From Chitinophagaceae bacterium (GTDB lineage: Bacteria; Bacteroidota; Bacteroidia; Chitinophagales; Chitinophagaceae), in NCBI GenBank assembly GCA_947372105.1, contig CANBSH010000021.1, forward strand, positions 1 to 36,719: DNA of 36,719 nucleotides. The letters run 5' to 3'. Positions within the stretch are counted from its first letter, which is position 1; each line of letters begins with the position of its first letter. Positions 31,141 through 36,719 of this stretch are shown one piece after another. The notes beneath the pieces are model-generated. The model worked only from the letters and a program-made list of their open reading frames with translations. It was not told the origin of the DNA and made no database searches. The translations under genes were made by a program, and so were the position numbers.

Positions 31141-34100
31141 CTATGCTTTCTTTTCAGCTTCTTTTTCATTAGAAGCTTCATGAGCTGCTTCATGTTCATC
31201 GCTGTTTCTCACTTTTGCTAAGTAAGTCACATTAGGTAACACGTGTAATTGCTCTAACACATAGAAAGAACGATTAGGATTTTCAACACGAACTTTAGTA
31301 ATAGCGCTGTGTTTGTCGTTGGCATTACCAAAGCTGATGGCGTTGGTAGGACAAGATTGTTGACAAGCCACTTTAATATCGCCATCTTCAAAAGGACGAG
31401 AATCTTTTTTCGCTTTCAATTTACCTTCTTGTAAACGTTGAACGCAGAAAGAACATTTTTCAATCACACCACGAGAACGAACTGTAACATCAGGATTTAA
31501 TACCATACGAGTTAAATCATCACTCATATTAATCACCACATCGTTTACAATACCTTCTTGGTTGTCAGGGAAACTATCTGCACCAGAATAATCAGACCAG
31601 TTAAAACGACGCACTTTGAAAGGACAGTTGTTCGCGCAATAACGAGTACCAATACAACGGTTATAAGTCATTTGGTTTAAACCTTCACTAGAGTGGTTAG
31701 TAGCAGCCACTGGACAAACGTTTTCACAAGGAGCGTTATCGCAATGTTGACACATTAAAGGTTGGAACACCACATTTGGGTTATCCATATCACCACTAAA
31801 ATATTTATCAATACGTAACCAATGCATTTCATGGCCACGTAAAACTTCGGGCTTACCTACAACAGCAACGTTGTTTTCGGCGTTACAAGCAACTACGCAA
31901 GCACCGCAACCATTACAACTGTTTAAGTCCACGCTCATACCCCATTTAATTCCTGGACGTTCGTACACAGGATAAATAGTTCCTTGCGCTTCGTATTTTT
32001 CTAATCCACCATAAGGTTTAGTTTCTGCTTCACGCTCTTCTAAAATTTCGGTTGGATTCTTTTTGTATTCAGCTAAAGTAATTTCTTTTACTACTTCGGT
32101 ACGAGTACCTTGAGCAGTATCGTAACGGAAATGTGTTTGAGTTAAAGCAACAGGATAAGTTTCACCCGTTACAGATAATGTAACATTGGTGCAATTAAAA
32201 TGCACTGTTCCATTTTCGATGCAAGCTAAAGGGAAAGCATTTTTACCCGTACCAATGACCGCTTTACCCACTGCTTCTGCACGACCATATCCTAAAGCGA
32301 TACCCACTGTTTGAGGATGTGTACCAGGAATAATTAAAACAGGAAGTTCGATAGATTTTCCATCAACAGTTAACTTCACTACTTTTTTAGGAGGATGTAC
32401 TTCATAATCATCCGCTTGACCAGCATTATTTAAATCGATGTTCAATAAAGTACGCGCCATAGAAGGAGATACTATAATATAGTTATCCCAAGTAGCACGA
32501 GTTACTGGATCTGGTAATTCTTGTAACCAAGGGTTACTTGCACCTTGACCAGCACCTATACCTATTTTTTGATATAAAGCTAATTCGATTGTTGTATTAG
32601 GTTTGCTTGCAGCAACAACAGCTAATGCATTTGCAACAGCGGCACCGTTTAAGCTAGCACCTGCAGTAGGAACTGAAGTAGGATTTAAAACACCAGCTTG
32701 TAAAGTTTTGTTCCAAGCAGTTTCAGAACCTAATTTACGAGACCACTCATTTTTTAAGTAAGTTGTAAAATCGGTTGCATCACCAGACCACTTTAATAAA
32801 GAGTCTTCAAAAGGACGTGTCTTAAATAAAGGAGAGATAGTAGGTTGTAAGAAAGTATAATAACCAGCAGCAGGTTCGGCATCACCCCAACTTTCTAAAA
32901 AGTGAGGAGCAGGTAAAACGTATTTACAAAGAGCCGTAGTTTCATCTAATTTAGCATTGAAAGAAATAGAAGTTTTCACTTTTGCTAAACCAGATTTTAC
33001 TTTATCCGCTTGAGGCCAAGAGTAAACAGGGTTCGCGCCATAAAATAAAACAGTATTTATTTTACCCGCGTTCATGTCATCTACCACCGTAGCAAAATCA
33101 CTATCAATACCTTGACGATAATTCACAGTCACACCAAAATTAATGGTGTTACCGTTGGCGCCAATAGCATCGTTAATAGCGTTTACAATAATTTGAACAT
33201 TCACATCATTGCTACCAGCAACCACTAATGCTGCATTTTTGTTTCCAATTAAAGCATCAGCAGCTACTGCGATACCTTCTTTTAACTTTACATCATTGAT
33301 GCCCGTAATAGGTTGCCCTTTTACTGCACTTAATAAACCAGCAGCAATCGCACCAATTTCAGAAGGACGACAAGTATATTTTTGATCTGCGTTAGAACCC
33401 GTTAAGCTCGCCACTGTTTCAAAGTGGACATGCTTACTCATCGCAGGCGTTTTTTCATTTAATTTTTTACCAGTAGCATATTGTTTTGCAAATTCAACTG
33501 GATTTAACCAAGTACCTAAGAAGTCAGCGCTTAAAGAAACAACCGCTTTCGCTTTATCAAATTGATAAGAAGGTAAAACGCGTTTTCCGTAGCAAGCTTC
33601 GTTGGCTAATAACATACTAGAGTGAGACACTGCATCGTAGGTTACATGTTTGCTACCAGGATGTTTTGCTAAAAATTGTGCAATCACCGCTTTCGTAGAA
33701 GGTGAAGTGATAGAACTTGTAACAATCACAGCAGCGCCATTTAATTCAGCAGCAATGGCTTTATCTATATTTTCAAAACTCGCTTCTTTACCACTCATTA
33801 AAGGGAAACGTAAACGAGCAGTATCATATAAGTCTAACACAGCAGCTTGCACACGAGCAGAAGTACCACCATTGGTTAAAGGACTTAAATCATTTCCTTC
33901 TAATTTAATAGGACGACCATCACGCACTTTCGCTAACACACTAATCACATCCCCATCTTGCACATAAGTAGTTGCATAATAATCAGAAATACCAGGAACT
34001 AAATCCTCAGGTTTGTTGGCAAAAGGAATTGCTTTTTTAATAGGCATTTCACAACTTGCGGCTACCGCAGCAGCAGCAGTGCTAAAACCTAAATATTTAA

Positions 34101-34269
34101 GGAAGTCACGACGAGGTGCTTTAGCTTGTAAAAAACTACCGCCTTTTTCAAGAGTTGATTCGTCTTCTACAAAAGGAAGTTCTTCTTTAAACTCGTTTTG
34201 AACCTCTGCGTTAAAAGCTTCAGAATTATTTAATTCTCCAAAACTTTGCCAGTGCTTTTTTTGCTCCAT
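31141..34269 (-). CDS. actB: Alternative complex III subunit ActB (molybdopterin-oxidoreductase-like Fe-S protein)
   Basis: This 1042-residue periplasmic subunit has an unusual internal Tat-type signal. RRDFLK (twin Arg at 53-54) follows a charged 50-residue leader; then comes a hydrophobic AAAAVAAS ending at C73, a possible lipobox. The large middle region (about 90-740) resembles the catalytic subunit of molybdopterin oxidoreductases but in this family binds no molybdenum. The C-terminal part (from C785) holds four Cys-rich motifs for Fe-S clusters: CNGCGACVVAC, CQHCDNAPCENVC, CIGTRYCANNC with a following Pro, and CSFC with the distant CQQSC. Its role is to relay electrons from ActC quinol to heme subunits ActA/ActE. 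It follows actA by 39 bp. Confidence 0.97.
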   Translation of the reverse strand: MEQKKHWQSFGELNNSEAFNAEVQNEFKEELPFVEDESTLEKGGSFLQAKAPRRDFLKYLGFSTAAAAVAASCEMPIKKAIPFANKPEDLVPGISDYYATTYVQDGDVISVLAKVRDGRPIKLEGNDLSPLTNGGTSARVQAAVLDLYDTARLRFPLMSGKEASFENIDKAIAAELNGAAVIVTSSITSPSTKAVIAQFLAKHPGSKHVTYDAVSHSSMLLANEACYGKRVLPSYQFDKAKAVVSLSADFLGTWLNPVEFAKQYATGKKLNEKTPAMSKHVHFETVASLTGSNADQKYTCRPSEIGAIAAGLLSAVKGQPITGINDVKLKEGIAVAADALIGNKNAALVVAGSNDVNVQIIVNAINDAIGANGNTINFGVTVNYRQGIDSDFATVVDDMNAGKINTVLFYGANPVYSWPQADKVKSGLAKVKTSISFNAKLDETTALCKYVLPAPHFLESWGDAEPAAGYYTFLQPTISPLFKTRPFEDSLLKWSGDATDFTTYLKNEWSRKLGSETAWNKTLQAGVLNPTSVPTAGASLNGAAVANALAVVAASKPNTTIELALYQKIGIGAGQGASNPWLQELPDPVTRATWDNYIIVSPSMARTLLNIDLNNAGQADDYEVHPPKKVVKLTVDGKSIELPVLIIPGTHPQTVGIALGYGRAEAVGKAVIGTGKNAFPLACIENGTVHFNCTNVTLSVTGETYPVALTQTHFRYDTAQGTRTEVVKEITLAEYKKNPTEILEEREAETKPYGGLEKYEAQGTIYPVYERPGIKWGMSVDLNSCNGCGACVVACNAENNVAVVGKPEVLRGHEMHWLRIDKYFSGDMDNPNVVFQPLMCQHCDNAPCENVCPVAATNHSSEGLNQMTYNRCIGTRYCANNCPFKVRRFNWSDYSGADSFPDNQEGIVNDVVINMSDDLTRMVLNPDVTVRSRGVIEKCSFCVQRLQEGKLKAKKDSRPFEDGDIKVACQQSCPTNAISFGNANDKHSAITKVRVENPNRSFYVLEQLHVLPNVTYLAKVRNSDEHEAAHEASNEKEAEKKA

Positions 34270-34308: not shown

Positions 34309-35565
34309 TTAGTAGTGACATTTTTGACACTCCGTACCGCCAATTTTTTCAACAGTGATTCCTTTAGCGCTATCTAATTTTCCAGATTTTAAATCCTCAT
34401 GGAATTTTTCGTAGATGCTATAAAAACCATTGTCTTTAAATTGAACTTGTGTATTGCGATGACAATTCACACACCATCCCATGCTTAAATCAGCGAATTG
34501 TTTTACTTCACCCATTTTTTGAATCTCACCATGACATTGTTGACAAGCTACTTGACCCGCATTCACGTGTTGAGCGTGGTTAAAGTAAACGTGATCAGGT
34601 AAGTTGTGAATACGAACCCACTCAATAGGTTTTGCTTGTGTTGCATCCCAAGGTTGACCTTCGGTGAAACCAGCATACTTATATAATTTTTTAATTTCTG
34701 CAGTACCATCTACCACATCTCCATTTTCACGAACTAAAGCTTCGCCTTTGTATTCGTTGATAGCCATGTGACAGTTCATACAAACATTCACACTTGGTAA
34801 AGTTGCTTGTTTGCCTTGGTAAGTACCTGTATGACAGTATTGACAGTTAATTTGATTCACACCTGCGTGTACTTTATGAGAATAGTAGATAGGTTGTTCT
34901 GGTTGATAATCCTTAGAGCGACCTAAATTCATCGCGCCTACTGTTGTCATATAACCACCCACAATAAATAATATGATAGAGATGAAAGCGATGTAAGCTT
35001 TGTTGCGATAAAAAGGAACAGGATCAACAGCAGGAATACCCGCTTTGTCATCCGATAATTTTTTAAGGTTGCTATTAACTTGTAATAAGATTAAAGAAAC
35101 TACTGCTAATATTAATGTTAATAGACCAAATACTAAAGTGCTATCAGATTCATCTGAAGGAGCAGTTGAAGTAGCAGCACCACCAGCAGGCGCAGCGCCA
35201 GCAGCAGGAACTGATTTGATATAGCCTAAAATCGCATCAATATCTTTATCCGTTAAAGTAGGAAACAAGTTCATTGCTGTTTTATTGTACTCGTTGTACA
35301 ATTTGTTGGCATAAGCATCGCCTGTTTTTAAAAATGCAGCATTGTTTTTAATCCATGCATACAGATTTTTTTTATCAGGCCAACGATCTTCTACACCAGC
35401 AAGTGCAGGACCGGTTAATTTTTTATTAACGGCGTGACATGATGCACAGTTTTGGGAGAAAAGTGATTTCCCATCTTGCGCATTCAACTGATTACCGATA
35501 GATGAACTAAGGGTGATAAATAGGAAGATCGAAACGATCTTAGCTAGGCTTCTTAAAATTGTCAT
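34309..35565 (-). CDS. actA: Alternative complex III subunit ActA (hexaheme membrane-anchored cytochrome c)
   Basis: The product is 418 residues from the ATG at complement 35563-35565; the frame continues two codons to a GTG that is not needed. An N-terminal signal is followed by a monoheme cytochrome c domain (CASCH at 40-44). Two membrane helices (about 144-162 and 190-208) and a pentaheme domain follow, with CQYCH (241-245), CMNCH (262-266), CQQCH (341-345), CVNCH (365-369) and CQKCH (413-417, nearly the last residues). Six CxxCH sites match the six-heme ActA of Flavobacterium, in which a monoheme domain is fused to the pentaheme protein. It is the first gene of the respiratory operon. Confidence 0.95.
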   Translation of the reverse strand: MTILRSLAKIVSIFLFITLSSSIGNQLNAQDGKSLFSQNCASCHAVNKKLTGPALAGVEDRWPDKKNLYAWIKNNAAFLKTGDAYANKLYNEYNKTAMNLFPTLTDKDIDAILGYIKSVPAAGAAPAGGAATSTAPSDESDSTLVFGLLTLILAVVSLILLQVNSNLKKLSDDKAGIPAVDPVPFYRNKAYIAFISIILFIVGGYMTTVGAMNLGRSKDYQPEQPIYYSHKVHAGVNQINCQYCHTGTYQGKQATLPSVNVCMNCHMAINEYKGEALVRENGDVVDGTAEIKKLYKYAGFTEGQPWDATQAKPIEWVRIHNLPDHVYFNHAQHVNAGQVACQQCHGEIQKMGEVKQFADLSMGWCVNCHRNTQVQFKDNGFYSIYEKFHEDLKSGKLDSAKGITVEKIGGTECQKCHY

Positions 35566-35610
35566 ATACACAAACAGTGTCTAGTGTGGAAAAATATCCT
35601 TGAACGGGTG

Positions 35611-35618
35611 CAAAATTA
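35611..35618 (-). promoter_or_regulatory. Possible -7 element of the act-cta operon
   Basis: The minus-strand reading TAATTTTG (complement of 35611-35618) fits TAnnTTTG and lies 46 bp before the actA start. That is a suitable position for the main promoter of the respiratory operon. No TTG is found at the 17-23 bp spacing upstream, so this is tentative. Confidence 0.4.
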
Positions 35619-35812
35619 CTTAAGAATAGGATTCGATACTAGGTTTTGGAGAAGTTTTTTTTAATTGAAAATGTTGAGTTTCAAGGATGTTATCTAAAAA
35701 ACGCTGACGAATGTCATAATATTGTAATGTTAGCCGAATGTGGGAGAATTTTGTAGAAGAAAGCGATACAAATTTTGAAAAAAACATCATCTTTGGCGCC
35801 AAGGAAAACACT

Positions 35813-36679
35813 ATGAACGGATTACAAAGATTACAGACAAAGTGGAAAGTGGGGACAGGTCAGTTTTGGCTCATCCTTTTGACTTTTGCCTTGGGCGGGA
35901 GCCTAAGTGGGAGGCTATGTTCTAAAATCCTGAATTTGGTGTTTTTAGAGAAAAATTGGGCATTTTGGCTCATTTATCCCCTAGTTTTGACCATTTTATG
36001 GCCAATTTCGGTCATTTTCGTAAGTTTCTTCACAGGGCAATTTCGCTTTTTTAAGGGGTATTTGGGTAGAATTTCGGGTCGATTTATAGGAAAAAGCACC
36101 CAGCATATTGCCATTTTTGCCTCGGGTACGGGGACCAATGCACGAAAAATAATAGAGTTTTTTGAAGCCAGAGCGGTGGAATATCCTGGGAAACGACCTA
36201 TAAAAGTGTCATTAATAGTGTGTAATGTTCCTGGAGCGGGGGTATTGGACATTGCTAAGGAAAAGGGAATTCCCACCTTACTTATTAATAAAACCGAGTT
36301 TTCGGCCACCGGATATGTAGAGAGTTTGCGTAATTCCGAGATTAATTTTATCGTGTTGGCCGGATTTTTATGGAAAGTACCCGAAGTAATGGTACGCGCC
36401 TTTCCTAAAGCCATCGTAAATATTCATCCTGCATTGTTACCTAAATATGGTGGTAAAGGAATGTATGGTGCTAAAGTGCATGATGCAGTGATTGCTGCGG
36501 GTGAAAAAGAATCTGGTATTAGTATTCATTGGGTGAATGAACATTATGATGAAGGCGATATTATTTTTCAAGCAACATGTTCGGTAAATTCTTCAGATAC
36601 ATCTGCTTCACTTGCGAATAAAATTCATTCTTTAGAACATACTCACTTTGCTCCTACTATTGAAAAGTTATTGAGTTAG
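35813..36679 (+). CDS. purN: DUF6787 membrane domain fused to phosphoribosylglycinamide formyltransferase (PurN)
   Basis: The 288-residue product starts at the ATG at 35813; an earlier in-frame ATG at 35738 adds 25 residues unlike either domain. Residues 1-90 carry two transmembrane helices (about 18-36 and 51-75) with FALGGSLSGR and GQFRFFKGYLGRISGRF, matching the small stand-alone DUF6787 family. Residues 98-288 are a full PurN: a phosphate-binding loop at IFASGTGTNARKI, NIHPALLPKYGGKG with catalytic N203 and H205, and D246 in NEHYDEGDI. PurN transfers formyl from 10-formyltetrahydrofolate to glycinamide ribonucleotide in purine synthesis and is normally a soluble protein of about 190-200 residues. 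There is no Met or alternative start codon at the junction, so the enzyme would be tethered to the inner membrane. Confidence 0.85.
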   Translation: MNGLQRLQTKWKVGTGQFWLILLTFALGGSLSGRLCSKILNLVFLEKNWAFWLIYPLVLTILWPISVIFVSFFTGQFRFFKGYLGRISGRFIGKSTQHIAIFASGTGTNARKIIEFFEARAVEYPGKRPIKVSLIVCNVPGAGVLDIAKEKGIPTLLINKTEFSATGYVESLRNSEINFIVLAGFLWKVPEVMVRAFPKAIVNIHPALLPKYGGKGMYGAKVHDAVIAAGEKESGISIHWVNEHYDEGDIIFQATCSVNSSDTSASLANKIHSLEHTHFAPTIEKLLS

Positions 36680-36719
36680 ATTTTTATTTTCAAGTTTTAT
36701 TTTCAGAATGATTTCACTT

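Follow-up and report, generated by a model that had tools for sequence, protein, structure and literature searches.

The purN gene at one end of the contig analysed here is joined, in a single open frame, to a gene for the membrane domain DUF6787, and the same fusion is present in 84 other genomes of the genus (in one of these, G005, the contig end cuts PurN). The in-frame fusion proposed in the first-pass annotation of this DNA is thus confirmed as genuine and long-lived. It is reasonably likely, with a probability of about 0.6, that two co-translated genes were joined in it, that an ordinary GAR formyltransferase is tethered by a membrane hairpin, and that the tether is tolerated while the two domains keep separate jobs. 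A family in which PurN is commonly built onto a membrane hairpin offers a natural experiment on the importance of enzyme location for purine synthesis, and the coexistence of fused, adjacent and DUF6787-free relatives within one genus makes the comparison easy. The fusion also gives DUF6787 a first partner.

The fused gene and its predicted product

The window, that is, the whole stretch of DNA that was analysed, is one complete contig (G000:C21) of 36,719 bases from a genome of 2.2 Mb in 84 contigs; the nearest named records are those of Sediminibacterium and other Chitinophagaceae, mostly MAGs. The fused gene and its parts are as follows.

35813..36679, plus strand: whole fused gene, DUF6787 domain, linker and PurN, 288 aa (open frame of 288 codons plus stop)
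35822..36082, plus strand: DUF6787 domain, two membrane helices and a basic juxtamembrane helix (Pfam; profile A1, 119 bits, a match partly by construction since A1 includes the window's own row)
35855..35941, plus strand: predicted membrane helix 1, residues 15-43 (AlphaFold model)
35957..36034, plus strand: predicted membrane helix 2, residues 49-74 (AlphaFold model; hydropathy)
36041..36088, plus strand: predicted basic juxtamembrane helix leading into PurN, residues 77-92 (AlphaFold model; charge)
36062..36064, plus strand: TTG with AAGGGG just before it, the only in-frame ATG, GTG or TTG of the scanned stretch in the window gene
36104..36676, plus strand: PurN (GAR formyltransferase) domain (Pfam; invariant residues; fold match to 3p9x)
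36419-36421, 36425-36427 and 36548-36550, plus strand: PurN catalytic residues N203, H205 and D246 (invariant in 50/50 rows of alignment A3)

The gene starts at the ATG at 35813, and the closest relatives align with its product from residues 1-3 onward; the upstream in-frame ATG at 35738 is a possible but less likely start. The contig ends 40 bases past the PurN stop (36679-36719), so that the window holds nothing further downstream.

The PurN part is readily identified. Formyl_trans_N (PF00551) matches the fused protein with 128.3 bits, over the Pfam cut-off of 26.1, and the catalytic Asn, His and Asp, the roles of which are known from E. coli PurN, are intact, as the first-pass annotation had stated. 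The TIGR00639 score (123.9-125.7) falls under the equivalog cut-off of 150.1; among the controls, five unfused Bacteroidota PurN score 138.9-153.9, with two of the five over the cut-off, and one of three other fusions is over it. Since the unfused proteins straddle this cut-off, it appears to suit Bacteroidota badly. For the N-terminal part, DUF6787 (PF20584) gives 26.3 bits on that part alone and 23.9 on the whole protein, both just under the cut-off of 27.5, so that the label, taken from the window protein alone, is marginal. Judged by sequence similarity, the relatives speak for the assignment made in the first-pass annotation: 25 of the 50 A3 rows, 29 of which are fusions, match DUF6787 at E <= 0.001 (best 2.7e-19). 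Nine A1 columns (K7, W8, F15, F22, G26, G72, F76, F77 and Y80 in the numbering of the window row) are invariant in 34 sequences of the genus. Within this one genus, the DUF6787 domain fused to PurN occurs in two subtypes, GGSL/GQF.FFK.YL and TGTTTA/GQW.FFWKYE (e.g., A1 rows L188, L186 and L172), and longer DUF6787-type proteins (L314-L316) that belong to the same class but lie outside the family resemble the latter. A search for a solved relative of DUF6787 yielded only weak hits to designed proteins, which were taken as chance.

The AlphaFold model of the fused protein, built with a 50-row alignment (mean pLDDT 93.2, pTM 0.76), consists of helices at residues 15-43, 49-74 and 77-92 followed by the PurN fold, for which the best PDB match is 3p9x, a PurN (E 2.1e-17, TM-score 0.88 by target length) that is also found by sequence as a PurN relative. 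The two membrane helices are predicted by the model and by hydropathy, which peaks at 2.15 in the 19-residue windows starting at residues 52 and 53, within helix 2. Three K/R residues precede helix 1, and residues 75-96 contain five K/R and zero D/E; these basic ends suggest that both ends of the hairpin face the cytoplasm. PurN is accordingly predicted, from model, hydropathy and charge, to be tethered at the inner face of the membrane, in agreement with the placement in the first-pass annotation.

Fused and separate forms in Chitinophagaceae and their genomic context

Among 147 genomes of the genus, 113 have PurN on the loci that were read and classified by profile on six frames. DUF6787 and PurN are fused in one frame in 85 of these loci, in 24 a separate DUF6787 gene immediately precedes PurN, and in four there is no DUF6787 beside PurN. 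DUF6787 is found in 110 of the 147 genomes, always alongside PurN. Three of the four exceptions (G009, G064 and G104) are true cases of PurN with no DUF6787 found; in the fourth, G089, contig ends cut the locus and DUF6787 lies at the end of another contig. PurN and DUF6787 are both missing from 34 of the 147 genomes, e.g., G001 (98% complete), in which PurM-like matches remain. ActA, the divergent neighbor described below, is also missing from 29 of these 34, and in the other five it matches at E <= 1e-30 on contigs that cut it or end within ~230 bases of it; in G031, a PurN tail lies at a contig edge. These genomes may reflect assembly loss of one locus or real deletion, and co-absence was set aside as functional evidence because ActA is mostly missing too.

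The family was sampled evenly with 147 genomes from 100 genera; 68 of these genomes contain DUF6787 and 141 contain PurN, and 73 of the 141 have no DUF6787 as far as profile A1 reaches. Counted by eye from coordinates, 35 of the 68 DUF6787 genomes carry the fusion, 18 have the two genes on the same strand less than 400 nt apart, five have them on opposite strands ~3 kb apart, nine are unlinked or undetermined, and in G196 the distance is ~970 nt. The two are adjacent or fused in many relatives, both in the genus (85 and 24 of 113) and in the family sample, where DUF6787 is fused to PurN or located less than 400 nt upstream on the same strand in 53 of 68. All 20 of the 35 family fusions that were re-read from sequence are open in one frame, and ten of the 18 adjacent pairs were re-read as well. 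Cultured isolates with the fusion include Pseudoflavitalea sp. G-6-1-2, Flavihumibacter fluminis RY-1 and Agriterribacter humi YJ03. PurN is a single gene in 140 of the 141 PurN-bearing genomes of the sample; G308 contains two PurN matches, on C46 and C98.

The genes divergent from the fused gene, absent from the first-pass annotation, belong to an alternative complex III operon that is a constant feature in the genus.

34309..35571, minus strand: ActA-like multihaem cytochrome, alternative complex III, divergent neighbor
31141..34269, minus strand: ActB-like subunit, alternative complex III, downstream of ActA
35572..35812, no strand: intergenic region of 241 bases that separates the divergent ActA and fused genes

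The labels ActA and ActB refer to what we take to be the respective subunits of this complex. In 109 of the 113 loci of the genus (82/85 fused, 24/24 separate and 3/4 lacking DUF6787), the PurN gene and an ActA-like gene diverge from each other, and the other four loci are located at contig ends. The same arrangement holds for all 20 of the family fusions that were read and for 10 of the 11 family loci in which DUF6787 is a separate upstream gene (L291 is the exception). It is also seen in three of eight family PurN loci with no adjacent DUF6787 (L305-L307, not L299-L303) and in 13 of the 46 named PurN loci that lack DUF6787. The adjacency of PurN and ActA therefore does not need DUF6787, and DUF6787 may, going by these gene orders, have been inserted between the two. 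Against a simple order of events, DUF6787 lies ~3 kb off on the other strand in L299-L302, four of the five loci without ActA.

On the other side of PurN, a tRNA is found ~1-2.5 kb downstream in five of seven relatives searched.

L083 7246-7317: downstream tRNA
L090 6895-6966: downstream tRNA
L086 8473-8544: downstream tRNA
L084 7975-8046: downstream tRNA
L092 7163-7234: downstream tRNA

The genes beyond the tRNA differ between L083 and L090, and the DNA downstream of PurN may form a variable, tRNA-flanked site.

DUF6787, purine metabolism and possible selection for the tether

Fused forms outnumber separate ones by 85:24 in the genus and by 35:18 in the family sample. Such an excess would not be expected if the fusion were purely tolerated, and selection for tethering is therefore possible. 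In its specific form, this alternative holds that DUF6787 acts as a scaffold and keeps PurN close to a partner in the membrane, which could be an enzyme of folate or C1 metabolism, a transporter or the neighboring respiratory complex, thereby allowing channelling or local control; we consider it unlikely. The prevalence of the fused state in the genus, the close linkage in the 53 family genomes and the divergent ActA gene in nearly all loci of the genus fit this scheme. So does the selection on DUF6787: in 22 close pairs, a few genomes appearing in more than one pair, the median dN/dS is 0.061 for DUF6787 and 0.058 for PurN, compared to 0.234 for the linker (20 pairs). Both halves are under strong purifying selection, the linker less so. 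A selected tether is at odds, however, with the DUF6787-free PurN genomes (the three in the genus and the 73 in the family sample, within the reach of A1) and with the linkers, which range from 8 to 73 residues (median 23) and share sequence only among close relatives.

The context of DUF6787 outside the family speaks against it as well. Among 62 DUF6787 genomes, the loci of the 26 best-scoring ones plus four more were read, and none of these 30 has PurN within 1.5 kb; PurN is also missing within ~2 kb in three further loci, so that it is not beside DUF6787 in 33 of 33. The 112 neighbor ORFs of the 30 loci most often belong to DUF6146 (18) and DUF937 (17) among the 25 of 69 families shown. GTP cyclohydrolase I, a folate enzyme, accounts for two of the 112, and this adjacency, found twice, favors a selected tether. 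Long frames in G533, G427 and G505, considered as candidate fusions of DUF6787 to other enzymes, turned out by eye to be DUF6787-type proteins with an extra hydrophobic stretch.

The first-pass annotation had read the fusion as a hint that DUF6787 is linked to purine synthesis or C1 metabolism. The part of this claim that survives is the partnership with PurN in one family; beyond that, a service of DUF6787 in purine synthesis is weakly supported. The DUF6787 loci read outside the family have no PurN nearby and many genomes have PurN but no DUF6787, which points to a lineage-bound partnership, confined in our samples to one family, more than to a general purine role.

PurT is over the cut-off in 0/147 genomes of the genus, so that PurN is the only GAR formyltransferase of a known type found there. 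The best PurT hits, mostly frames of 375-400 aa, are probably PurK, and the other PF00551 hit in the genome of the window is probably Fmt. PurM (TIGR00878) has matches in 146 of the 147 genomes, over the cut-off in none (13 of 14 controls are over), suggesting a divergent PurM; it accordingly says little as a pathway marker in this genus. The alternative complex III operon, being the usual divergent neighbor, raises the speculative and very improbable scenario that step three of purine synthesis in Chitinophagaceae is run by an inner-membrane enzyme, with DUF6787 as a membrane platform that links the respiratory chain to the flux of purines or formyl-folate.

The junction, its origin and likeness to known systems

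Under the preferred reading, that of a tolerated tether, the starting state would be two neighboring co-translated genes, DUF6787 followed by purN, and loss of the short stop/start junction would have produced one polypeptide. The separate pairs fit such a starting state. The PurN ATG is located at -6 from the PurN motif in 24/24 of them (23 by script, G080 by eye), and the distance from the DUF6787 stop to the PurN start is -4 to +17 nt in the 23 that were scored, with four ATGA overlaps. In the fused genes, the ATG at -6 is found in 0/85. Because the separate genes are so tightly packed, joining would seem to be the usual direction of change. In the product, a two-helix hairpin whose ends both lie in the cytoplasm would be followed by a flexible linker that changes fast and by an ordinary GAR formyltransferase at the inner membrane face. 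We infer membrane insertion of the domain, activity of the enzyme in its tethered state and the predominance of the joined protein among the products; each domain would keep its own job after joining, and the membrane part seems to be tolerated without being required.

The clade of the window comprises 40 sequences in one group (support 100) and is fused throughout; a stop and a separate PurN start, which the first-pass annotation had named as potential disproof, are seen in none of its members. Linkers in this clade come in 20 distinct lengths, all in frame (being in frame is part of the definition of fused, but the whole 40-gene clade is fused). In a PurN tree of 156 sequences, the fused-versus-not character needs 15 changes, with at least three forced by well-supported branches; the tree was obtained by a quick method with modest support, 66 of its 152 inner branches being open, and leaves out G005, G089 and G091 as partial. 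The tree indicates that the fused and separate states interchanged more than once, by changes that could be gains or losses. Several origins of the fusion are likely but, since the forced changes may be losses as well as gains, not proven. The linkers, rich in S, G, A, K and T, contain in L190, L194, L205, L214, L216 and L128 what appear by eye to be translated repeats (SLESGV, TPNSKLQTPNS, GEWSMVNGE, TSDIK), as would result from the incorporation of intergenic repeats into the coding frame.

The junction of the window gene reads GRFIGKSTQHIAIF, as quoted in the first-pass annotation, but the accompanying statement that it offers no usable alternative start went too far, given the in-frame TTG at 36062-36064, 18 codons ahead of the PurN motif and preceded by AAGGGG. 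A distinctly improbable alternative is, then, that the fused genes yield two products, part of the PurN being started inside the linker (at this TTG in the window, at other starts elsewhere) and soluble, and the rest tethered. The stretch scanned for start codons extends from 12 residues before the DUF6787 end up to the PurN motif, and it contains an in-frame ATG in 36 of the 85 fused genes (within 10 codons of the motif in seven), which together with the TTG counts against a strictly single product; a shorter soluble PurN could also be made from some fused genes. The start positions are not conserved, however; 49 of the 85 have no ATG in the scanned stretch and six have none of the three codons, on top of the loss of the ATG at -6 from all 85, and the frame is kept through the 20 linker lengths of the window's clade.

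Cleavage of the fused chain in the linker, with release of PurN to the cytoplasm, is less credible still. Variable linkers of the above composition are a plausible place for proteolysis, but no shared cleavage motif is seen in them by eye, almost nothing separates helix 77-92 from PurN in the model of the window protein, and the linker is down to 8-9 residues in five of the 40 clade members. It has a negligible probability that the fusion is an artefact of assembly or sequencing, or that an unrelated hydrophobic stretch was misread as DUF6787: the contig end 40 bases after the gene and the DUF6787 score just under the cut-off would be compatible with it, but the fusion is open in the 84 other genomes of the genus and in the 20 re-read family loci, isolates included, which excludes chance as well as the read error at the junction considered in the first-pass annotation.

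A limited, mainly title-level literature search found no relevant report on DUF6787, a PurN-membrane fusion, PurN gene fusions in Bacteroidetes, a membrane anchor of GAR transformylase or alternative complex III in Chitinophagaceae, nor, among the titles listed, on membrane-bound purine synthesis in Bacteroidota; the domain pair may already be displayed in InterPro. According to PMC3210124, purinosomes are not known to be inner-membrane associated.

In its PurN part (PF00551, TIGR00639, 3p9x), the fused protein has the same fold, the same catalytic N, H and D and the same domain length as ordinary PurN, which is usually treated as a free cytosolic enzyme; it differs by the added N-terminal membrane hairpin and by the lack of the ATG that starts PurN in the relatives with separate genes. 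The N-terminal part resembles DUF6787 (PF20584), a small membrane protein of Bacteroidota, in being a two-helix domain, with the pattern KW...F...G...GQ(F/W).FF..Y conserved in alignment A1; outside the family, DUF6787 is a separate ORF of mostly ~100-130 aa, not beside PurN in the loci read. A further parallel is human trifunctional GART, in which a GAR formyltransferase domain is likewise part of a longer fused protein; there, the partners are other soluble purine enzymes, whereas in the Chitinophagaceae fusion the partner is a membrane domain.
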